IMG/VR virus record: IMGVR_UViG_3300042938_002271
Coordinates: 1-24,697 of that record
Direction: 5' to 3' (one strand)
Length of the DNA stretch: 24,697 nucleotides
From: a virus
The notes beneath the pieces were generated by a model, which was given only the letters and a program-made list of their open reading frames with translations, did no database searches and was not told the DNA's origin. How positions within the stretch are numbered: position 1 is the first letter of the stretch; every line of letters begins with the position of its first letter. A program made the translations under genes and the position numbers. Shown here piece after piece: positions 8,160 to 24,697 of this stretch.

Positions 8160-8510
8160 ATCAAAGAAATAACAACAAAGATACTAGTAAGGTTAAATAC
8201 ATCCGCTGTTAAGGAAAACAGGGAAAGGACTATATATGCGCTATATGCAAAACACTTAAAAAAGTTTGATAGTGAGTATCCTTGGTATATAGCACACGCC
8301 AGAGAGTGTCTAACAAGAAATGGCGTCGAAGTAGAGCCGTACATACGGCTTATAATAAACCCTAAGGGGTTAGATGAAAGTTCGATAAATATGCAGGTTA
8401 AAGACCTAGCACTTTTAATAAGTCTTAGTTCTTTCTCTATCGATATAGGGAAGAAGACTTATGAAAAATTATTTGGAAAATTCAAAGAGGAAGATTATTA
8501 TGGTAAATAG
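8160..8510 (+). CDS. Hypothetical protein with a non-standard start codon
   Basis: An uninterrupted frame of 116 codons fills what would otherwise be a 340-base gap. It begins after a TAA inside the previous gene and has no ATG, GTG or TTG before codon 79. AAGGAG at 8146-8151 lies 8 bases before an ATC codon at 8160, the best-placed candidate start (ATT at 8152 is too close to the SD). The product is protein-like: IKEITTKILVRLNTSAVKEN, YALYAKHLKKFDSEYPWYIA, then IRLIINPKG and an SSFSIDIGKKTYEKLFGKF C-terminus. Codon use resembles the neighbours. It overlaps the ATPase gene by 11 bases, as expected of a real operon member. The function is unknown. An AUC start, a sequencing error or a decayed start codon are all possible. 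Confidence 0.65.
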   Translation: MKEITTKILVRLNTSAVKENRERTIYALYAKHLKKFDSEYPWYIAHARECLTRNGVEVEPYIRLIINPKGLDESSINMQVKDLALLISLSSFSIDIGKKTYEKLFGKFKEEDYYGK

Positions 8511-9471
8511 CACAAGCGCAGAATCCATCAAGTCCGTAGTTAGCATGAACGAAGGAGATGCGTTCAGTTCTTCAGACGGCACTATTATCCCAGGTGTTGA
8601 CACATCATTTCACATCGAGCCAGACACCCTGTCGCTATTCTCGATCATCGAAAAAGAAAGAAAAGAAGGTAAGTCCCAGAACATTATGCTAAAGGGACCT
8701 TCGGGCTGTGGCAAGACAAGTACAGCTGAGCAGTACGCAGCTAGACATGGTCTTCCCATGTTAAAGATTAACTGTGCTCTTGTAGAGAGTGCAGCAGAAT
8801 GGTTCGGGCGTCTCGGTACCACCAGGTCCGGTGGCATGCGAGATATAGGATATATTGACACCCCTTTCACTCGAGTAGTCGAGAAGGGCAATGCTGTTAT
8901 CCTGCTGGATGAGATTAATCGTACGGGTAAAGAAGTTGTTAACGGCTTAATGAACCTTCTAGATCACACCCGAGCAGCATTCCTTATGGAACGTCGCCCA
9001 AATCCAGTTCTCAAAGATGGGGGCGGTATCGTATGGTTTGCAACTCTTAATGAAGGCAGATCCTACGTAGGAACGTCACGCATGGACTATGCGTTAACCA
9101 CACGATTTAGCGATATTGTTGAGGTAAACTACCTACCAAGAAAGGAAGAAACTGACCTGTTAGTTCTAAAGACAGGGGTAGATGTTAGCGTAGCTACTAA
9201 ACTAGTAGACTTGGCGAACACAATCCGCATGAAAAGCAAAGGCGTAGAAAGCATATTCTCAGCCGCCTTGGGCACGAGGGAGCTAATAACCGCAGCATCT
9301 AGGTATGCGAGTGGTGGCGTCTCCACACTTCGGTTTACAATAGTAAATCGATTTGGTAATGACGGCGGTGCTGACTCCGAGAGAGGCCAAGTTCTAGAGA
9401 TGATGAAAGGCAAGTTCGGTGCAATGGACTGCACTGCAGCTACAACCGCATCTGATTTGCTAAGCCTCTAA
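8500..9471 (+). CDS. MoxR/CobS-like AAA+ ATPase
   Basis: 323 residues from ATG 8500, chosen because GAGGAAG lies 8 bases upstream; an in-frame ATG at 8461 lacks an SD. Walker A is GPSGCGKTS (66-74) and Walker B is ILLDEINR (134-141). A sensor-1-like region is WFATLNEG, and an arginine-finger region is ALTTRFSDIVEVNYL. This is the MoxR/CbbQ/CobS branch of AAA+ ATPases, which act as remodelling chaperones, typically with a VWA-domain partner. That partner is the next gene. In phages such pairs are often labelled cobS/cobT-like, but real cobalt chelation is doubtful here: no other cobalamin gene is visible. A role in protein remodelling during replication or assembly is inferred. Confidence 0.9.
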   Translation: MVNSTSAESIKSVVSMNEGDAFSSSDGTIIPGVDTSFHIEPDTLSLFSIIEKERKEGKSQNIMLKGPSGCGKTSTAEQYAARHGLPMLKINCALVESAAEWFGRLGTTRSGGMRDIGYIDTPFTRVVEKGNAVILLDEINRTGKEVVNGLMNLLDHTRAAFLMERRPNPVLKDGGGIVWFATLNEGRSYVGTSRMDYALTTRFSDIVEVNYLPRKEETDLLVLKTGVDVSVATKLVDLANTIRMKSKGVESIFSAALGTRELITAASRYASGGVSTLRFTIVNRFGNDGGADSERGQVLEMMKGKFGAMDCTAATTASDLLSL

Positions 9472-9481
9472 TTTAATTACT

Positions 9482-9510
9482 CCGGTAGGGTAAATTTCTT
9501 ACCCTACCGG
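9482..9510. other. Perfect 12-bp hairpin between ATPase and VWA genes
   Basis: CCGGTAGGGTAA (9482-9493), a 5-base loop, and its exact complement TTACCCTACCGG (9499-9510). No T-run follows on either strand, so it is not a standard terminator. It could be an mRNA processing or stability element, or a partial terminator adjusting the ATPase to VWA ratio. Confidence 0.8.
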
Positions 9511-9546
9511 TAAATATAAAACAACAACAAGAAGGATTTAAAAAAC

Positions 9547-11514
9547 ATGGCTAGTGATTATTCAAGTGATTATTATCGAAGTTGGTATTCTTCCCCGTCC
9601 TACACACCTGCTAAGAAAAAGGTGAAAGACAATTGGAAGACATTCGGAGGCTGGGGTGGTAATACGTGGACAGATACGTACTGGGACTCTAGGTACGAGT
9701 ATCAGACGAAGTATTCTGAAAAGTCAGCAGAAGAGAAAAAGAAAGAGGCCGATGTAAAAATATGCAAAGTAAGCCTTGCATCAATCGGTAGAAGTGCGAA
9801 TGTAATACTAAACTCTCCGGATAACACTGAGAAGAGTATGACAGTGAAATTCTCTACGGGTAGAAACGTAAACACCCACAATGACACGGTGATCTACATA
9901 TCACCTGATAGAATCCTCGCAGCAGAAAACGAGGAAAAAAGGGGCGAGGTTATTGATGCCCTATGCGGAGAAGTGATGTTAGCATCACAGATCCGTAGAC
10001 AGATACCCATACCAGTAGTAGCGTCATTCAATCGGACAAAGAAACAAAGCGTAAAAGCTTTGTTCTCAGCAATCGAAACTGCCACTGCTAGAAATGCTGT
10101 GTCCCAAGAATGGGAGGGCTTCAAGCCATACTTTGACGCCTACAGTGACGTTATTGTAGAGGGAGAGTACGATGAAATTAAAAATCTAATCGCAGAGCAT
10201 GATGGTAATGACGGGAACCCTACATCATCGTATGCGTTCATACGAGCAGTGTCTTGGAACCTATATCATGTAAACCATCCTATACCTATTCCCGAGGTAT
10301 ACGCTAAGGCGAAAGAAATAATAAAAGTAGGATTGTGCTCTGCGGTTACCCCAGAAGAGCGGCTCGATATGTGTCGTACAGCGGTATACAAAATAGAGAA
10401 GATGTACGACAAAGATAAAGATCCTAAAGAAAATCCGGAGGGAGAAGAAAAGCCAAAGATTGACTGGTCATCCCCTATGCAAGGTATAGATAAAAACTTC
10501 TTTGGGTTCTCCAAAGTACAGATTGAGAATAAGGAGCTTCCTGCAGCTGCACTTATTGCAGAGGCTTCTGGGGAAGAAAAAGAAGACGAGGCATGCCCAG
10601 TTAAATTTGAAGGGCATGGGACTATAGACGAGTTGAGTATAGGAGAGAGGACCGTGCCTATATGGTGTGCTCCTGATCATAGCCCACAACTCGATTACTC
10701 CGATAGCGAAGTACGGGATATGGATGCAAAAGCGGAATCTCTTGCGTCTCTACTTTACTTAAGAGGGGTATCTGACTCTAGAAAAGTATACAACTCTTCT
10801 TACGGAAAAGTGAATACTAAAGCCATGCATCGATTTCTAGAGGAAGAAGAATCTATGGACTCAGACAAGGTTTTCTATCACAGAAAAGAAGATTCTTCAG
10901 ATAAGGCAAGCGTGTGTATACTAATTGACCAATCTGGATCAATGGACGCTAAGACGGATGGAAACAAGCGCATAGATTCAGCTAGGGAAATAGGATATAT
11001 AATCGCCAAGGTCTGCCAAAAATCTGACGACATAGATCTAAGCATCATAGGCTTCTCTGCGCAAGAGGGCACCATGGGAGCTAGAATCGCAAAAGTTTCT
11101 GGTAAGGGCGAGGTTAATCTTAGAATGGTGTATGATAATACCAAGGGAACAGATATTAAGAATATACTCCATATGGAGGCTCATTCTAATAATATCGATG
11201 GTTTCTCAATCTGGTATGCAGCACAAAAACTTTGCGAAAATAAAAAGCATTACGCTAAAAAAGTAATGATAGTCATTTCTGACGGCCAGCCCTGCGCTAT
11301 GGGGTACAGCGGAGATGTTGCTATAGCGCATGTTGGGCATGCTGTAAAAGATGTACGTAACAGATTTAACATGTCTGTTTACGGTATAGGCGCATGCTCC
11401 GCCTTCGACCCTAGAATAGGGGAGAAAATGTATGGCAAGAATAATTTTACTATAGTTCCAGGTATGACGCAGGTAATGCGCCCTATATCTAGGATCATAA
11501 GTAAGTTAGTATAA
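9547..11514 (+). CDS. VWA-domain protein, MoxR partner (CobT-like)
   Basis: 655 residues, with AAGAAGGA upstream of the ATG. The first 65 residues are Tyr/Ser/Trp/Lys-rich and probably disordered. Residues about 70-330 are a mostly helical domain (EVIDALCGEVMLASQIRRQIP) of the kind seen in VWA-like putative metallopeptidase and CobT-type proteins, ending in a Lys/Glu-rich linker. The C-terminal VWA domain carries the MIDAS motif D461-Q-S463-G-S465-M-D in CILIDQSGSMD, and a later VMIVISDGQP strand with the expected acidic residue. MIDAS sites bind Mg2+ and a protein partner. The gene follows the MoxR ATPase after a hairpin and its stop abuts the convergent gene's stop. A role as substrate adaptor for the ATPase is inferred from the family. 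Confidence 0.88.
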   Translation: MASDYSSDYYRSWYSSPSYTPAKKKVKDNWKTFGGWGGNTWTDTYWDSRYEYQTKYSEKSAEEKKKEADVKICKVSLASIGRSANVILNSPDNTEKSMTVKFSTGRNVNTHNDTVIYISPDRILAAENEEKRGEVIDALCGEVMLASQIRRQIPIPVVASFNRTKKQSVKALFSAIETATARNAVSQEWEGFKPYFDAYSDVIVEGEYDEIKNLIAEHDGNDGNPTSSYAFIRAVSWNLYHVNHPIPIPEVYAKAKEIIKVGLCSAVTPEERLDMCRTAVYKIEKMYDKDKDPKENPEGEEKPKIDWSSPMQGIDKNFFGFSKVQIENKELPAAALIAEASGEEKEDEACPVKFEGHGTIDELSIGERTVPIWCAPDHSPQLDYSDSEVRDMDAKAESLASLLYLRGVSDSRKVYNSSYGKVNTKAMHRFLEEEESMDSDKVFYHRKEDSSDKASVCILIDQSGSMDAKTDGNKRIDSAREIGYIIAKVCQKSDDIDLSIIGFSAQEGTMGARIAKVSGKGEVNLRMVYDNTKGTDIKNILHMEAHSNNIDGFSIWYAAQKLCENKKHYAKKVMIVISDGQPCAMGYSGDVAIAHVGHAVKDVRNRFNMSVYGIGACSAFDPRIGEKMYGKNNFTIVPGMTQVMRPISRIISKLV

Positions 11515-20199: not shown

Positions 20200-20436
20200 A
20201 TGTGGGAGCCGGTAAAATCAGACATAGCATGGCTGGATAAATTATTCAATATGCTAAAAGAAGGGGGTAAGTGGATTGCCCCTATAACTGGTCAAGTGTT
20301 TGAAAAAAAAGGTAAATCCCTTATTCTAGTAAATGAGGGTATACCAGACTCAAACTTAATCTTTGAAAGATCAAAGATTATTGGTAGCAAAATTGGTATC
20401 AGTGTAATAAAGAAATCAGAGGAGGAACATGAGTAA
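20200..20436 (+). CDS. Hypothetical protein
   Basis: 78 residues, with GGAG (20190-20193) 6 bases before the ATG. The N-terminus is helical (SDIAWLDKLFNMLKEGGKW), and the remainder is beta-rich and Lys-rich (PITGQVFEKKGKSLILVNEG), ending KKSEEEHE. It overlaps the next gene by 8 bases, its 3' end carrying that gene's SD (GAGGAGG). The family is not recognised. Confidence 0.65.
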   Translation: MWEPVKSDIAWLDKLFNMLKEGGKWIAPITGQVFEKKGKSLILVNEGIPDSNLIFERSKIIGSKIGISVIKKSEEEHE

Positions 20437-21028
20437 GAATAAAGGGTATGAAGCGTGGGCCGCTCGGTTAGGATTCTTCCGAGGCGAGTTTGGGTTTGGG
20501 CCTATCAAGAGAATCCTCAATGAAGACGGGCGTCTTCATTGCGACAACGGTCCTGCCTACATTTCACCCACTCGGGTGATGTGGTACAGGAATGGTAAAC
20601 AGCACGGTCTAGACGCGGACAAGTTTGGTAGTATACTATACTACTATGAAGGTGTGAGGATACCACCTCACTTCTTCACAAAACCCGAAACGGTTACGCT
20701 GAAGGAAGTTCTTCAACATTCCAATTCGGAAGTGCGGTATGTGGGTATGAAGGTAATAGGACTCGACACTATAATGTCGAGCGACCAAACCAGAATAATC
20801 CATAAGGACGTAGACCAGTTTGGAAGAGAGCGTATACTCTTTCAAATACCAAAGGTGTTCGAAGAACCAACCTTGTACGTTAAGGTTGTAAACTCGACGC
20901 CAGAACCAGACGGTACGTACAAGAATTATTTCTTGTGCGTCCCTCCCACGATGAAGACATGCCAGCAGGCTGTCGCGTGGACAAATTACCTCACAGCGGA
21001 TAAGTATCATCCGTCACAAGAATCCTAA
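20429..21028 (+). CDS. DUF6745-like protein
   Basis: 199 residues, with SD GAGGAGGA before the ATG. It follows the layout I associate with DUF6745: a repeat of type RLHCDNGPAY...VMWYRNGKQHG, then YYYEGVRIPPHFFTKPETVT, and a leucine-rich segment (LKEVLQHSNSEVRYVGMKVI) preceding a beta-rich C-terminus. Members occur in bacteria and phages, often next to the protein type encoded by the following gene. No activity is established to my knowledge. The family assignment is from pattern memory, not a search. Confidence 0.65.
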   Translation: MSKNKGYEAWAARLGFFRGEFGFGPIKRILNEDGRLHCDNGPAYISPTRVMWYRNGKQHGLDADKFGSILYYYEGVRIPPHFFTKPETVTLKEVLQHSNSEVRYVGMKVIGLDTIMSSDQTRIIHKDVDQFGRERILFQIPKVFEEPTLYVKVVNSTPEPDGTYKNYFLCVPPTMKTCQQAVAWTNYLTADKYHPSQES

Positions 21029-21040
21029 GGAGCTAGTAGC

Positions 21041-21367
21041 ATGAAAAAGTTTCAATCAAGACAGGGCGACATTTTCTTTCGAGTAGTCAACAAGCCAAAA
21101 GATTTGGAAATGCTCAAAAAGCATGAGTCTAAAATCTTGGCGTTTGGCGAGGTGACCGGTCACAGTCATCAGATCACTTCGGAAACTGAAGTTGAGTCTT
21201 ATGTAAACAAAAATGGAGACATCTTCTTGTTCTCCAAGGATCCCATCGTAGTGGGCCATGACGAACACACATCAATCAACTTACCAAGCGGTAAGTGGGT
21301 ATGCGTTACTCGCCAACGAGAATATGATCCATTGGCAGCCGACAAAGAAAGAAAAGTTGCTGACTAG
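21041..21367 (+). CDS. Conserved hypothetical, GEVTGHSH/HDEH protein
   Basis: 108 residues, with AAGGAG upstream of the ATG. Key features are GDIFFRVVN (9-17), LAFGEVTGHSHQI (about 33-45), GHDEHTSINLPSGKW and VTRQREYDPLA. The conserved His/Glu residues (GEVTGHxH and HDEH) could form a metal site. This type commonly accompanies DUF6745 genes, as here, suggesting joint function. The biochemical role is unknown. It is the last gene before the terminator at 21424. Confidence 0.7.
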   Translation: MKKFQSRQGDIFFRVVNKPKDLEMLKKHESKILAFGEVTGHSHQITSETEVESYVNKNGDIFLFSKDPIVVGHDEHTSINLPSGKWVCVTRQREYDPLAADKERKVAD

Positions 21368-21411: not shown

Positions 21412-21423
21412 TATATCTCATGG

Positions 21424-21453
21424 GGGGCGGCAGATGTTCTGCTGCCCCTTTTT
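21424..21453 (+). terminator. Intrinsic terminator
   Basis: GGGGCGGCAG (21424-21433), loop ATGTT, CTGCTGCCCC (21439-21448; one G-T wobble), then TTTTT. It separates the DUF6745 operon from the gene and array downstream. Confidence 0.88.
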
Positions 21454-21481
21454 CGTTTAATTAGTTTAAGGAAATGACAAT

Positions 21482-21799
21482 ATGGCTAAGGTTAAAAGCA
21501 AAGTAAATTTGGTAGAGATCGATGGCGCTGCAGCTCAGTCAATGGCACAAGTAGCGCAGCAGTTCTTGGGGCAGCCAGTGGCGGTATTGTGCGCTCGGTA
21601 CAATTACCGAGGCATCCTTTCTCACGTAGGTGAGGATTGTTTGGTTTTGGCGCAGGCTCGCGCGGTAGAAACCTCGGGTGCTAGCAGCCAAGAGCAGCCC
21701 AATACGGAGGATCCAATAGGGTCATCTGTAATTATTTCACTTGGAGCAGTAGAGATCATTTATCAACCAAGATGGTGCTTTGCACCCTTGGATGCGTAA
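21482..21799 (+). CDS. Conserved phage hypothetical protein
   Basis: 105 residues, beta-rich, with AAGGA upstream of the ATG. The core VNLVEIDGAAAQSMAQVAQQ, then QPVAVLCARYNYRGILSHVG, TEDPIGSSVIISLGAVEIIY and a C-terminal QPRWCFAPLD, matches a hypothetical I have seen in many uncultivated phages. The short strands around RYNYRGILS..GEDCLVL recall small barrel folds such as Sm/LSm or ribosomal RimM-like domains, but that is a guess. It heads the stretch that contains the Trp-rich array. Its TAA shares a base with the first array start (TAATG). Confidence 0.75.
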   Translation: MAKVKSKVNLVEIDGAAAQSMAQVAQQFLGQPVAVLCARYNYRGILSHVGEDCLVLAQARAVETSGASSQEQPNTEDPIGSSVIISLGAVEIIYQPRWCFAPLDA

Positions 21800-22047
21800 T
21801 GAGAATGCATAGTAGATCAGGAAGGCCTTTTAACAACCCAATTCTAGGCCCGACTTTTTCATGGATGCAAGGTAGGCCAGATGGCTGGCCCTGCCCTGCT
21901 AAGTCCTGCGAATGGGCGAGGGGAATGAGATTTAATAGGGCTTGGAAATCAGCTGAGTTTCTATCCATATCAACACTGAATAGGGACTCAAGCTATTCTT
22001 GGTTAAAGGGTATTAGAGGATCCATTAACACGAGGGCGCATGGATAA
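21799..22047 (+). CDS. Trp-rich array unit 1 (atypical)
   Basis: 82 residues with 5 Trp, the longest unit. It starts at ATG 21799, overlapping the upstream TAA by one base, with MRMHSRSGRPF rather than the later MIRK. The body is rich in Arg, Gly, Pro and Ser (SWMQGRPDGWPCPAKSCEW) with two Cys, and the end (NTRAHG) lacks the Trp-x4 motif. It looks like the founder or boundary member. The function is unknown. Confidence 0.65.
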   Translation: MRMHSRSGRPFNNPILGPTFSWMQGRPDGWPCPAKSCEWARGMRFNRAWKSAEFLSISTLNRDSSYSWLKGIRGSINTRAHG

Positions 22048-22232
22048 TGAGAAAAAATAGAGGAGTCATCTTCACGTGGCCCAGAGCTAGACTCTGGGCC
22101 CAAGGATGGTGTTATAGTTCTTTAAAAACTCAAATAGCCGTATGGTCATTGTCAGCTAGTGCTAACAAGCCTTGGTGCGACAATTGGTCAATTACTACAC
22201 CCGTGTCTAATTCATGGAGTACTAATTTGTGA
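22047..22232 (+). CDS. Trp-rich array unit 2
   Basis: 61 residues with 7 Trp, starting MRKNRG. The ATG shares a base with the previous TAA (TAATG). It ends SWSTNL-stop, the first Trp-x4 ending; TGG-AGT gives the GGAG (22216-22219) used by unit 3. The +1 frame contains several stops, so only this frame is coding. Confidence 0.75.
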   Translation: MRKNRGVIFTWPRARLWAQGWCYSSLKTQIAVWSLSASANKPWCDNWSITTPVSNSWSTNL

Positions 22233-22426
22233 TTACTTCATCTAGATGGGACGGGTCCATGTCTTGGGAGGACTCTAGATACAAATCATCTGTACAACGA
22301 GAAACTTATTCCTACTCTTGGACTAGATCTGCTTGTGCTACTAGTTTTGGAACCGTCTCTTGGTCTAGGTCTTGGGGCAGAGAAAGAGCAGGCTACAAAT
22401 CATGGTGTTGGAGGATAGGAAGATGA
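22229..22426 (+). CDS. Trp-rich array unit 3
   Basis: 65 residues with 7 Trp, starting at GTG (GTGA overlap). The N-terminus is MITSSRWDGS; the body has SYSWTRSAC and SWSRSWGRE, and the end is CWRIGR-stop. Ser, Arg and Trp dominate. The +1 frame is also open for about 61 codons. Confidence 0.75.
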   Translation: MITSSRWDGSMSWEDSRYKSSVQRETYSYSWTRSACATSFGTVSWSRSWGRERAGYKSWCWRIGR

Positions 22427-22623
22427 TAATGAAATCAGTGTGGAGTGGGTCTAGGTCTTGGTCTAAACCCATCGGGTTTGAATCTCGCGTGTCTACTGCT
22501 TGGTCTGGGTCTAAGACTTGGTCTTTGGCTTGGGGTAAGTCTAGGTATACGTGGTCTAACTGTTGGCTCTGGCTTGACGCTATGTGCTGGAATAATTCTC
22601 TAAGTTGGAGAATACGCCAATGA
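22423..22623 (+). CDS. Trp-rich array unit 4
   Basis: 66 residues with 10 Trp, starting MIMKSVWSGSRSW at an ATG overlapping the unit 3 TGA. GGAGG at 22410-22414 is its SD. Spacing such as WSGSRSWSK and AWSGSKTWSLAW shows Trp every 4-6 residues. It ends SWRIRQ-stop. An in-frame ATG at 22372 would overlap unit 3 and is not preferred. Confidence 0.8.
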   Translation: MIMKSVWSGSRSWSKPIGFESRVSTAWSGSKTWSLAWGKSRYTWSNCWLWLDAMCWNNSLSWRIRQ

Positions 22624-22805
22624 TAAGAAAAATTAATGTAGATCCCGTATCTGCAGACTTTAGCCTTACCCGTACTTCGTCGTACGAGTGGGCAACAAAT
22701 AGGTGGGGTCTTAGCAGAACATCCGCCTGTTGGATGAGAAACCACGTTTGCTCTTATTCGCAGTTTTGGTTTGACCGATCTTATTGTTGGAGGAGAGTGC
22801 TTTGA
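22620..22805 (+). CDS. Trp-rich array unit 5
   Basis: 61 residues with 5 Trp, starting MIRKINVDP with ATGA overlap. It has a long Trp-poor first third, then SSYEWATNRWGLSRTSACW and an end CWRRVL-stop, in which TGG-AGG gives a full GGAGG SD for unit 6. Confidence 0.78.
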   Translation: MIRKINVDPVSADFSLTRTSSYEWATNRWGLSRTSACWMRNHVCSYSQFWFDRSYCWRRVL

Positions 22806-22921
22806 TAAGAAAATCTAACAACAACTATCCTGTTTGGGATTGGCCCGGCTCTAGACACTGGGTCAGGTCTTCAGCTAAATCGTCTTCTTGGTCTAGATGC
22901 TGGGCTCTATCTTCTGTGTAA
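22802..22921 (+). CDS. Trp-rich array unit 6, prematurely stopped
   Basis: 39 residues with 5 Trp, starting at TTG (TTGA overlap) and reading MIRKSNNNYPVWDWPGSRHW. It stops at TAA 22919-22921. The same frame then continues for nine sense codons (RTRNPNRWG) to a second TAA at 22949-22951, just before the next start. The TGGGGA there sits where the SD-forming Trp codon lies in other units. This is best read as a nonsense mutation in a unit of 49 residues. Confidence 0.7.
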   Translation: MIRKSNNNYPVWDWPGSRHWVRSSAKSSSWSRCWALSSV

Positions 22922-22955
22922 CGTACACGTAACCCTAACCGTTGGGGATAAACAA

Positions 22956-23126
22956 ATGATAAGAAAACTAGCACGCCCTAAAACTGTAGCTTGGTCAGAA
23001 TTTACGTGCAGTTCTTGGTGGTATGAATTTTTGATAACGAGCGGGGTTTGGCGTAGGCATGACTGTGACTCTGTATGTTGGACTAGGTCTGGGTCTTGTT
23101 CTTGGGTATGGAGGAATAACACATGA
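22956..23126 (+). CDS. Trp-rich array unit 7
   Basis: 56 residues with 7 Trp, starting MIRKLARPKTVAW. GGGGA (22944-22948) is its SD, and it is separated from unit 6 by 34 bases that are the untranslated remnant of that unit. The body has SSWWYEF and CWTRSGSCSW with three further Cys. It ends VWRNNT-stop. Confidence 0.78.
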   Translation: MIRKLARPKTVAWSEFTCSSWWYEFLITSGVWRRHDCDSVCWTRSGSCSWVWRNNT

Positions 23127-23311
23127 TAAGAAAACCAGCAACAACACAAGGGCGATCTGAGTGTTGGGCTTTTTCTGATCCAACATCGTGGACCATACGT
23201 AGGTACAGTCCTTGGCCTAGGTTTTCCCATTGTTGGACAATGGAATGGTGTTGGCATGCGCTTTGGAGTGAAGATGAAGTTTATTCAGAATCGTGGGAGG
23301 AAGATATATGA
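23123..23311 (+). CDS. Trp-rich array unit 8
   Basis: 62 residues with 8 Trp and 3 Cys, each Cys directly before a Trp (CW at three places). It starts MIRKPATTQ (ATGA overlap, SD GGAGG 23110-23114). Unlike most units the C-terminus is acidic (WSEDEVYSESWEEDI-stop), and TGG-GAG-GAA supplies the next SD. The +1 frame is open for about 67 codons. Confidence 0.78.
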   Translation: MIRKPATTQGRSECWAFSDPTSWTIRRYSPWPRFSHCWTMEWCWHALWSEDEVYSESWEEDI

Positions 23312-23520
23312 TAAGGAAAAATGCAAGAAGTGGAAATAAGATAGGTATAACTAATATTGGACATAGAACTTGGGCTTGGAGTGGGTTGGACCCTATGTCT
23401 GGAGAATGGTCTCAAGGGTGGGCTAAAAATGGAGATTGGAAAGGAGACCAAAATGAATCTTTTTCTTGGACGCAAACAATGTTGTGGACTAGGTCTACAG
23501 TTTGGAGTACATCCCAATGA
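23308..23520 (+). CDS. Trp-rich array unit 9
   Basis: 70 residues with 8 Trp, starting MIRKNARSGNKIG (ATA-AGG variant). It is Gly/Asn-richer than its neighbours (WSQGWAKNGDWKGDQNESFS) and has no Cys. It ends VWSTSQ-stop. The +1 frame opens at 23348 and runs through the junction to 23548. Confidence 0.78.
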   Translation: MIRKNARSGNKIGITNIGHRTWAWSGLDPMSGEWSQGWAKNGDWKGDQNESFSWTQTMLWTRSTVWSTSQ

Positions 23521-23729
23521 TGATAAGAAAAGCGTGGCCCTCGTCTAGGGGATGGTCTACGAACTGGAACAAACCTTGGCCCTATACTTGGCTATGGCCT
23601 TGGAATAAAACTGAATCTGGGTCTTGGTATAGAAGTAGATGTCGAGATCAAGATAAGTCAGGTGTCTGGTCTATGAGTAAAACTTGGTCTAAGTGTTGGA
23701 GTAGGTGGCTTTGGTGGAACGATGATTAG
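23517..23729 (+). CDS. Trp-rich array unit 10, highest Trp content
   Basis: 70 residues with 14 Trp (20 percent), starting ATG-ATG-ATA-AGA-AAA (MMIRK). Trp sits at positions 7, 13, 17, 21, 25, 27, 29, 37, 51, 57, 61, 64, 66 and 67, often every second or fourth residue (PWPYTWLWPWN, SKCWSRWLWW). The C-terminus (WWNDD-stop, TAG) departs from the Trp-x4 rule. An ATGATTAG overlap leads into the six-codon mini-ORF at 23722. Confidence 0.8.
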   Translation: MMIRKAWPSSRGWSTNWNKPWPYTWLWPWNKTESGSWYRSRCRDQDKSGVWSMSKTWSKCWSRWLWWNDD

Positions 23730-23742
23730 GAGAATACGATGA
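23722..23742 (+). CDS. Vestigial six-codon unit (MIRRIR)
   Basis: ATG-ATT-AGG-AGA-ATA-CGA-TGA. The start overlaps the unit 10 TAG exactly as the unit 12 start overlaps the unit 11 TAG (ATGATTAG), and its TGA overlaps the unit 11 ATG (ATGA). It looks like a unit whose body was deleted, keeping only start and stop, or a reinitiation relay. Whether it is translated is unknown. Confidence 0.4.
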   Translation: MIRRIR

Positions 23743-23936
23743 TAATGATAATGAAAGCTACCCCTAACGCCAAGATGGATAAGGTCATCTCCAAGTCTTG
23801 GACTCTAAACCGGCATTGGTCTAGGTTTAGGCCTTGGCCTTGGTCCAGCGTCTGGAGCAATATCTGGTTTTGGTCCGACTCTTGGAGTATAGATGAGGTC
23901 TGTTCAAATTCTTGGAGGAAGAGCAACAATGATTAG
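23739..23936 (+). CDS. Trp-rich array unit 11
   Basis: 65 residues with 9 Trp. The start is a tandem ATGATA-ATGATA-ATGAAA (MIMIMK), giving three in-frame ATGs; AGGAG at 23728-23732 is the SD. The first 20 residues lack Trp, then SWTLNRHWSRFRPWPW and VWSNIWFWSDSW follow. It ends SWRKSNND with TAG, so the overlap with unit 12 is 8 bases. Confidence 0.78.
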   Translation: MIMIMKATPNAKMDKVISKSWTLNRHWSRFRPWPWSSVWSNIWFWSDSWSIDEVCSNSWRKSNND

Positions 23937-24126
23937 AAAAGCTATAGGACCTGGGTCTGCGTCTTGGGCAAACGACAAAAATAGCAGTCCACTTGGTAGG
24001 TTAGGGCACTGGTCTTGGATGACAATTCTACCATTTTCATTTTGCCCTGGAGCGACTAAAGCCCTGTCGTTGTGGTTCGATGACGCCTTAAGCTACAGAT
24101 CTTGGAACTGGAGAAAACAAATATGA
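23929..24126 (+). CDS. Trp-rich array unit 12
   Basis: 65 residues with 6 Trp, starting MIRKAIGPGSASW (ATG-ATT-AGA-AAA). GGAGG at 23914-23918 is the SD. The middle is more hydrophobic than in other units (MTILPFSFCPGATKALSLWF). It ends NWRKQI-stop. The +1 frame is closed by several stops. Confidence 0.78.
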   Translation: MIRKAIGPGSASWANDKNSSPLGRLGHWSWMTILPFSFCPGATKALSLWFDDALSYRSWNWRKQI

Positions 24127-24314
24127 TTAGAAAAGCATGGGCGGAGTCTAAATGCTGGAATGTTGGTTGGCGTATGTCAAAGTCTACTTTCACTTTTACG
24201 TGCATCTCAGCTACTGGGCCTAACTTACGATTTCACTGCAGAGCTTGGTCTACTTCTGATTATTGGTGTTGTTGGAGAGTCTACGTAATTAACTGTTGGA
24301 GTAGCAACGTATGA
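24123..24314 (+). CDS. Trp-rich array unit 13
   Basis: 63 residues with 7 Trp and 6 Cys, the most Cys-rich unit (CW, CCW and a final CWSSNV-stop). It starts MIRKAWAESKCW (ATGA overlap, SD GGAG 24110-24113). A Thr/Phe-rich stretch (SKSTFTFTCISATG) lies in the middle. The +1 frame is open for about 53 codons. Confidence 0.78.
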   Translation: MIRKAWAESKCWNVGWRMSKSTFTFTCISATGPNLRFHCRAWSTSDYWCCWRVYVINCWSSNV

Positions 24315-24463
24315 TAAGAAAGTTTAATTGGCCTATTTCTGATTGCTGGTCTGAGATTAAACCCTGGTCTATCTCTTGGGATAGGTCGGTTACTGCTTGG
24401 AGTTGGACAGTTCACGAACTCTGGTCTAGTAACTGGTCTCGTTCTAAGGGATGGGGGAGCTAA
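24311..24463 (+). CDS. Trp-rich array unit 14
   Basis: 50 residues with 9 Trp at positions 7, 13, 19, 23, 30, 32, 38, 42 and 48, a fairly even 4-7 residue spacing. It starts MIRKFNWPISDCW (ATGA overlap, SD GGAG 24298-24301) and ends GWGS with TAA, whose last base begins the next ATG. The +1 frame is open through the junction for about 72 codons. Confidence 0.78.
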   Translation: MIRKFNWPISDCWSEIKPWSISWDRSVTAWSWTVHELWSSNWSRSKGWGS

Positions 24464-24645
24464 TGATAAGAAAAGCTTTAAAACCTATAGCTACTTCTTG
24501 GAGATTATGCCTACTTACAAGCTACCGCGGCGGTAGAAGTAATATGTCTTATTCTTGGAAAAAAGAAAGAAGCCTAAGTCTACAACAAAGAGAAGGCCGT
24601 ATTATAAACAGGTACCTTTCTAAGTCTTGGAGTGCTAACAATTGA
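24463..24645 (+). CDS. Trp-rich array unit 15, low Trp
   Basis: 60 residues with only 3 Trp, starting MIRKALKPIATSW. The middle is Arg/Lys/Gln-rich (KKERSLSLQQREGRIINRY), unlike its neighbours, but both ends keep the array signature: the MIRKA start and SWSANN-stop, with GGAG (24629-24632) as the next SD. This shows the ends are conserved independently of the body. Confidence 0.75.
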   Translation: MIRKALKPIATSWRLCLLTSYRGGRSNMSYSWKKERSLSLQQREGRIINRYLSKSWSANN

Positions 24646-24697
24646 TAAAGAAAACAAACGCACAGATTTTTGACCGTTCACAATGTTGGAAAGAAGA
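24642..24697 (+). CDS. Trp-rich array unit 16, cut by window edge
   Basis: Starts at TTG (TTGA overlap with the unit 15 stop) and reads MIKKTNAQIFDRSQCWKE to the end of the window. It shows that the array continues. Confidence 0.65.
   Translation, partial: MIKKTNAQIFDRSQCWKE

Follow-up and report, generated by a model that had tools for sequence, protein, structure and literature searches.

The 24,697-base virus record IMGVR_UViG_3300042938_002271, analysed here over its full length (the window), ends inside a tandem array of short, tryptophan (Trp, W)-rich open reading frames (ORFs) at 21799-24697 on the + strand. Arrays of 8 to about 30 such units occupy the same locus, after the same anchor gene, in six further distinct phages, and their units appear to be translated as a coupled set whose Trp codons are held in place by selection. 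The array is neither chance nor a contig-end artefact, and an assembly artefact is out, since independent contigs carry the array at the same locus. To our knowledge, no named system has this architecture.

The ORF calls in the window gave 15 complete units and a partial sixteenth on one strand, in agreement with an earlier description made from the letters without database searches (the sequence-only reading), and the array runs off the window as that description held, the record ending within unit 16. Complete units are 39-82 amino acids (aa) long. The earlier count of 110 Trp stands, while the residue total of 935 becomes 932 (11.8% Trp, versus 1.16% in the long ORFs of the closest large relative). 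Nearly every stop had been said to overlap the next start; this holds for 12 of the 14 junctions between complete units, mostly by 4 nucleotides (nt; ATGA), while two are gapped by 34 nt and 15 nt. The near-identical MIRK starts proved to be a majority feature, with nine complete units opening on an ATG-initiated MIRK and the other six on MRMH, MRKN, MITS (GTG), MIMK (two) or LIRK (TTG); partial unit 16 begins LIKK (TTG). The remaining two + frames of the array contain many stops, and the start motif TGGAG-N(3,14)-ATGATHMGNAAR occurs six times in the window versus 0 expected from shuffles. The units are as follows:

21799-22047, + strand: unit 1, MRMHSRSG..., 82 aa, 5 W; orthologues in L003 and L089 (family P)
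22047-22232, + strand: unit 2, 61 aa, 7 W
22229-22426, + strand: unit 3, GTG start, 65 aa, 7 W
22423-22623, + strand: unit 4, 66 aa, 10 W; orthologue in L089 (family Q)
22620-22805, + strand: unit 5, 61 aa, 5 W
22802-22921, + strand: unit 6, TTG start, 39 aa, 5 W; family D, with the L003 orthologue elsewhere in its array
22956-23126, + strand: unit 7, 56 aa, 7 W; orthologue in L095, of the other phage clade (family R)
23123-23311, + strand: unit 8, 62 aa, 8 W; subfamily conserved across clades
23308-23520, + strand: unit 9, 70 aa, 8 W
23520-23729, + strand: unit 10, 69 aa, 14 W; family S
23745-23936, + strand: unit 11, 63 aa, 9 W; orthologues in L003 and L089 (family F)
23929-24126, + strand: unit 12, 65 aa, 6 W
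24123-24314, + strand: unit 13, 63 aa, 7 W
24311-24463, + strand: unit 14, 50 aa, 9 W
24463-24645, + strand: unit 15, 60 aa, 3 W; the poorest in Trp
24642-24697, + strand: unit 16, partial, LIKKTNAQ..., cut by the contig end

Substitution rates were obtained from 72 reciprocal-best unit pairs. Pooled change was greater at synonymous (pS 0.28) than at nonsynonymous sites (pN 0.18), and many pairs had a ratio of nonsynonymous to synonymous rates (dN/dS) of 0.04-0.5, with others at about 1. For example, dN/dS against the L003 orthologue was 0.17 for unit 6 and 0.21 for unit 10, the latter being 81% identical. Within the subfamily of unit 8, alignment showed invariant Trp at W15, W23, W38, W42, W48 and W58, and S22, Y28, P30, D51 and S55 are also kept across two clades. 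In nucleotide alignments made independently of frame, in-frame TGG was unchanged in 92% of cases versus 38% and 57% off-frame. Compared with a neutral simulation matched to the observed count of changes, unit pairs (pre-selected as open ORFs of at least 60% identity) retained Trp at 95% versus 63%, serine (Ser, S) at 85% versus 73% and all non-Trp residues together at 76% versus 72%; the synonymous fraction of changes was 0.42 versus 0.23, and no in-frame stop was observed where 34 of 48 pairs were expected to carry one. Orthologues therefore combine purifying selection with an open frame, weakly at non-Trp positions and with some units near neutral. As read from these comparisons, the pattern shows that selection acts to make proteins and to keep their Trp, and translation of the units is strongly inferred. 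Freely occurring stops and frameshifts with neutral substitution in relatives, which the sequence-only reading had named as the outcome that would speak against it, did not occur, with weak constraint on the non-Trp residues.

The signals for coupled translation are themselves conserved. A Shine-Dalgarno sequence, GGAGG, lies at about -13 to -9 of the unit starts; the start-codon site reads ATGATAAG, and the ATG is followed by the near-fixed codons ATA AGA AAA, giving the start consensus ATGATAAGAAAA. This start overlaps the preceding stop, and its ATA codon yields a tandem stop, TGA-TAA, so that a second stop follows 76 of 119 units versus 14 of 125 ordinary long ORFs. The ribosome-binding site of each unit is encoded in the final codons of the preceding one (Ser-x-Ser/Cys-Trp-Arg/Ser; DNA TCTTGGAGG), and most units end in S-x-[SC]-W-[RSK]-x-x-x because the TGGAGG there doubles as the Shine-Dalgarno sequence of the next unit. 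Across the compared loci, 65 overlaps are of exactly 4 nt and 12 of 1 nt, placing stop/start overlaps together with Shine-Dalgarno sequences before the starts, as in coupled operons. The earlier proposal of an expanded, fast-diversifying phage family made as a coupled set is borne out in that the locus recurs with different units, frames stay open, Trp is kept and the coupling signals are conserved.

The unit bodies follow a physical pattern of alternating Trp and Ser. Among 119 units, neighbouring Trp residues are 2, 4, 6, 8 or 10 positions apart in 540 cases and 3, 5, 7 or 9 apart in 66, and the ratio of even to odd spacing between consecutive W is 78:13 in the window, 55:9 in L302 and 41:6 in the divergent L321. 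The even share of all W pairs in the window (0.69) exceeds the shuffle maximum of 0.59; the i, i+2, i+4 placement of Trp seen in Trp-zipper-type sequences is present, with even spacing far above odd. Ser falls at odd offsets from W 3397 times versus 854 at even ones. At even offsets, the over-represented residues mostly lie within two steps of TGG (G, R, E, K, Q, L); at odd offsets, they mostly lie within two steps of TCT (P, A, T, F, N, D, C). The repeat (TCT NGG)n is nearly intact in L098 and L321, where the +1 frame reads GLGLGL and GLGLGLGL ORFs in that frame overlap W-rich units (L098 9204-9473 and L321 16076-16423). The simplest reading of these patterns is that the units descend from degenerate (TCT NGG)n hexanucleotide repeats. 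The +1 GLGLGL frame was ruled out as the true gene, as many stops interrupt it in most units of the window and TGG is not conserved off-frame. In composition, the units are about 11% Trp and 9% Arg with Ser dominant at 18%, and their mean net charge is +5, with 104 of 119 positive and 15 neutral or negative.

Along the arrays, family strings follow a collinear backbone interrupted by insertions and losses, family D differs in position between phages, family R is common to both clades, and recent local unit duplications were found in L098 and L089. Between the window and L003, divergence at fourfold-degenerate sites is 0.68 in flanking genes versus 0.22 in shared units, while amino-acid difference is 0.25 in units versus 0.14 in flanking genes. 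The likeliest reading is that units moved between phages after the backbones diverged and change their proteins fast, and a DNA-level constraint on the repeat could add to the low synonymous divergence. On this evidence, units act as cassettes that are gained, lost, moved and exchanged between phages with far more diverged flanks.

The window terminase matches phages of up to about 205 kilobases (kb). Relatives of the anchor gene that carry the array include L003/L090 (a 181-kb contig), L089 (102 kb), L095 (173 kb) and L096, as well as L091-L094, which are near-identical and come from several metagenomes, and the more diverged L097/L098. In the 181-kb contig, W-rich units occur solely at this locus, with about 18 between 44.5 and 50 kb, and in relatives units are also present among conserved genes 5' of the main array. 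Distant phages (L302/L304, L308, L321 and others), reached via two small neighbouring genes, have units of the same body plan that start MILK, MIFK, MIIR or MITK, for example MILKANTYSNNRCFGFNTPKSNCWSRSWSGSRS...SWSFWSKHWSANI in L321. L311, L312, L320 and L325 contain the neighbour gene with few or no units detected. The array pattern was not found in 47 terminase-related records, and the annotation of Salmonella phage Arash, distantly related through its terminase, lists no comparable array in the region examined around that gene. A stricter DNA pattern recovered multi-unit arrays in viral contigs of the same clade only, and chance single hits only in 84,980 bacterial and archaeal genomes; a loose pattern gave just chance hits beyond the known clade among the matches listed, and a viral scan with the L321-type unit returned its own contig only. 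A profile search of viral contigs built on the 15 aligned units, of the kind that the sequence-only reading had proposed, failed, as no conserved block exists.

Other repetitive sequence was also seen in these phages. L089 has a second low-complexity region 3' of the array (10925-11236), with GEAWRG/GEVRRG-type repeats and no clear gene, and the 181-kb contig has a shorter relative of it. Short-repeat Trp ORFs in G007, an array-less relative, lie at L109 3182-3283 (+ strand, SPWIPLSPWIPL type) and L112 156-326 (- strand, LLLWTQ type), and are probably chance frames of repeats within longer genes.

Upstream of the array, the window contains the following features:

20429-21028, + strand: DUF6745 protein, 199 aa (E 5e-26), which accompanies the array in relatives
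21041-21367, + strand: phrog_27831 protein, QGDIFF...GEVTGHSH, island neighbour
21422-21456, + strand: intrinsic terminator, 13-base-pair stem plus T tract, strong hairpin GGGGGGCGGCAGATGTTCTGCTGCCCC at 21422-21450, 5' of the anchor gene
21482-21799, + strand: anchor gene, 105 aa, MAKVKSK..., conserved, directly 5' of the array

The anchor gene is the syntenic marker of the locus, many of its homologues adjoining W-rich units. The terminator hairpin and T tract are kept at the corresponding place in L003, and the terminator 5' of the anchor gene and array suggests that these form their own transcription unit. No close homologue of the 20429 and 21041 products was found in isolated phages, the sole hit being one of 28% to the DUF6745 gene, from an uncultured phage record, and literature searches on DUF6745 returned nothing relevant. 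Judged by gene content, the array is part of an accessory island, because L004-L009, relatives by their terminase, have neither the array nor the neighbours at 20429, 21041 and 21482 but share with the window the smaller neighbour gene at 20200. The sequence-only reading had not picked up this island setting next to a DUF6745 gene, nor the two-residue W/S alternation, the probable hexanucleotide ancestry or the movement of cassettes. Elsewhere in the window (8461-11514), what we take to be a MoxR-like AAA ATPase is followed by a presumed VWA-domain-like protein, a pair that is syntenic in terminase relatives.

For the products, we lean, with rather less than even confidence, towards mini-proteins made as a coupled set, mostly cationic and Trp-faced, that would self- or co-assemble. 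Slippage of the TCT NGG hexanucleotide together with point mutation may generate new W/S-alternating bodies, and coupled translation would deliver a locally concentrated mix of mostly cationic mini-proteins. Their Trp residues might line one face of extended segments, in a Trp-zipper or silk-like alternation. The units could then associate with themselves or each other, and possibly with nucleic acid or a target in the host, to build a fibrous or condensate-like structure in the infected cell, for which host takeover, anti-defence and a compartment are candidate roles. A fuller version, in which slippage and cassette recombination maintain a self-renewing coupled Trp/Ser library whose products co-assemble into a Trp-stacked fibre, gel or condensate in the host, seems distinctly doubtful. 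Several observations weigh against the assembly reading. For some orthologous units dN/dS is close to 1 or higher, indicating weak constraint on non-Trp residues, and the pre-selection of pairs biases the retention tests towards conservation, frame-specific Trp retention being the result least affected. The W/S parity could have been inherited from the ancestral hexanucleotide and owe nothing to beta structure. In addition, AlphaFold2 returned a low-confidence mean predicted local distance difference test score (pLDDT) of 48.0 and 43.5 for two conserved subfamilies, values that would fit disorder as well as shallow alignments; the first model contained some strands and is not trustworthy.

The main rival, which is unlikely on balance but deserves serious weight, is an arsenal of separate host-directed inhibitors with Trp-rich surfaces, swapped as interchangeable cassettes in an arms race and without joint assembly. 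It would account for unit turnover equally well: unit content differs strongly among phages through cassette gain, loss and exchange, shared units show more amino-acid change than the flanks despite their lower fourfold-site divergence, some have dN/dS near 1, and relatives by terminase have no such island at the syntenic position. However, classical inhibitor islands are compositionally diverse, and separate inhibitors would leave the common W/S alternation and composition unexplained; nor was a target or homologue found. The mean charge and the Trp and Arg contents given above would also suit cationic Trp/Arg-rich peptides of antimicrobial type that perturb host membranes, but this is improbable given the 15 neutral or negative units, the dominance of Ser and the status of Trp as the most strongly kept residue, and the units, at about 60 aa and lacking an evident signal or hydrophobic stretch, are unlike known lytic peptides.

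Two further readings dispense with functional products, and both are disfavoured. That the array is a non-functional by-product of an expanding (TCT NGG) repeat, open in one frame by accident, draws on the clear hexanucleotide ancestry, the even spacing and the less degenerate L098 and L321 versions that read GLGLGL in +1; it is nevertheless very improbable, as off-frame TGG is unconserved, the Shine-Dalgarno, start and tandem-stop signals are conserved, and the W frame is free of stops although TGG is one step from two stop codons and the other window frames are stop-rich. We give even less weight to a regulatory RNA or a translational device that would work through ribosome pausing or the sensing of tryptophan, the products being irrelevant. 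Trp codons are indeed the most conserved element, and folding is better than in dinucleotide shuffles for four of 14 window units (z about -2.7 to -3.2), but the mean folding z is just -0.8, there is no Rfam match, Trp codons run throughout every unit, Ser is also retained above neutral, and neither an attenuator-type terminator after each unit nor trp genes nearby were recognised.

If the assembly reading holds, the locus may amount to a naturally occurring, genetically diversified equivalent of Trp-zipper or sticker-and-spacer materials, and possibly gives phages a new means of organising or disabling the host cell. If the products are separate inhibitors, it would represent a large untapped pool of small host-directed proteins. 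In either case, a phage may rapidly make many new coding units from a six-base repeat, maintaining a physical pattern (Trp at alternate residues) instead of a sequence, and such loci can escape homology searches and gene callers with length cut-offs.

Comparison with known families gave no match to the units better than E 0.17 in Pfam, PHROGs and PDB sequences, searches limited by short length and low-complexity filters, and none to the array in Rfam. A tblastn search of INPHARED with the units was likewise without a match, a weak test with the low-complexity filter on, and literature searches on Trp-rich small phage proteins returned nothing relevant. An integron cassette array was rejected because at most junctions the units touch or overlap by 1-4 nt, leaving no room for attC (an integrase was not sought separately), and a Trp attenuator or leader because Rfam gave no match, no terminator follows each unit and the window ORFs include no recognised trp gene. 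Compared with precursors of ribosomally synthesised and post-translationally modified peptides, the units share just MIRK as a conserved N-terminus, and the view of their surroundings, limited to the adjoining genes, gave DUF6745, phrog_27831 and unknowns.

Tryptophan zippers are designed 12- to 16-mer beta-hairpins. The units resemble them in having Trp at alternate residues, spaced by Ser/Thr-type residues, but are natural, about 60 aa long and many per locus, and are known here from sequence alone. Designed Trp-zipper peptides are reported to self-assemble into gels (PMC10593748), which indicates that W-alternating peptides can assemble and nothing more. FUS-type [G/S]-aromatic-[G/S] domains, of sticker-and-spacer proteins for which cross-beta regions are described (PMC12054801), are similar to the units in their Ser/Gly-flanked aromatic, Arg-rich, cationic and low-complexity character. 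As in those domains, spacers are freely replaced while the aromatic residue is kept; however, FUS has Tyr in long eukaryotic domains whereas the units have Trp, and the likeness lies in composition, with no sequence homology expected. Aromatic-Ser/Gly low-complexity domains condense, which, like the self-assembly of Trp-zipper peptides, backs the assembly reading by analogy only. Silk-type alternating repeats of Gly/Ala/Ser occur in long secreted proteins, and the units share with them a two-residue periodicity from short nucleotide repeats, built of Trp/Ser instead. Early regions of T4-like and T7-like phages contain small tandem host-takeover genes, which, like the units, are short, coupled, on one strand, variable in content among relatives and mostly ORFans. 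In contrast to the compositionally unrelated genes of those regions, nearly all units have in common their start block, their W/S pattern and a C-terminal S-x-S/C-W-R.

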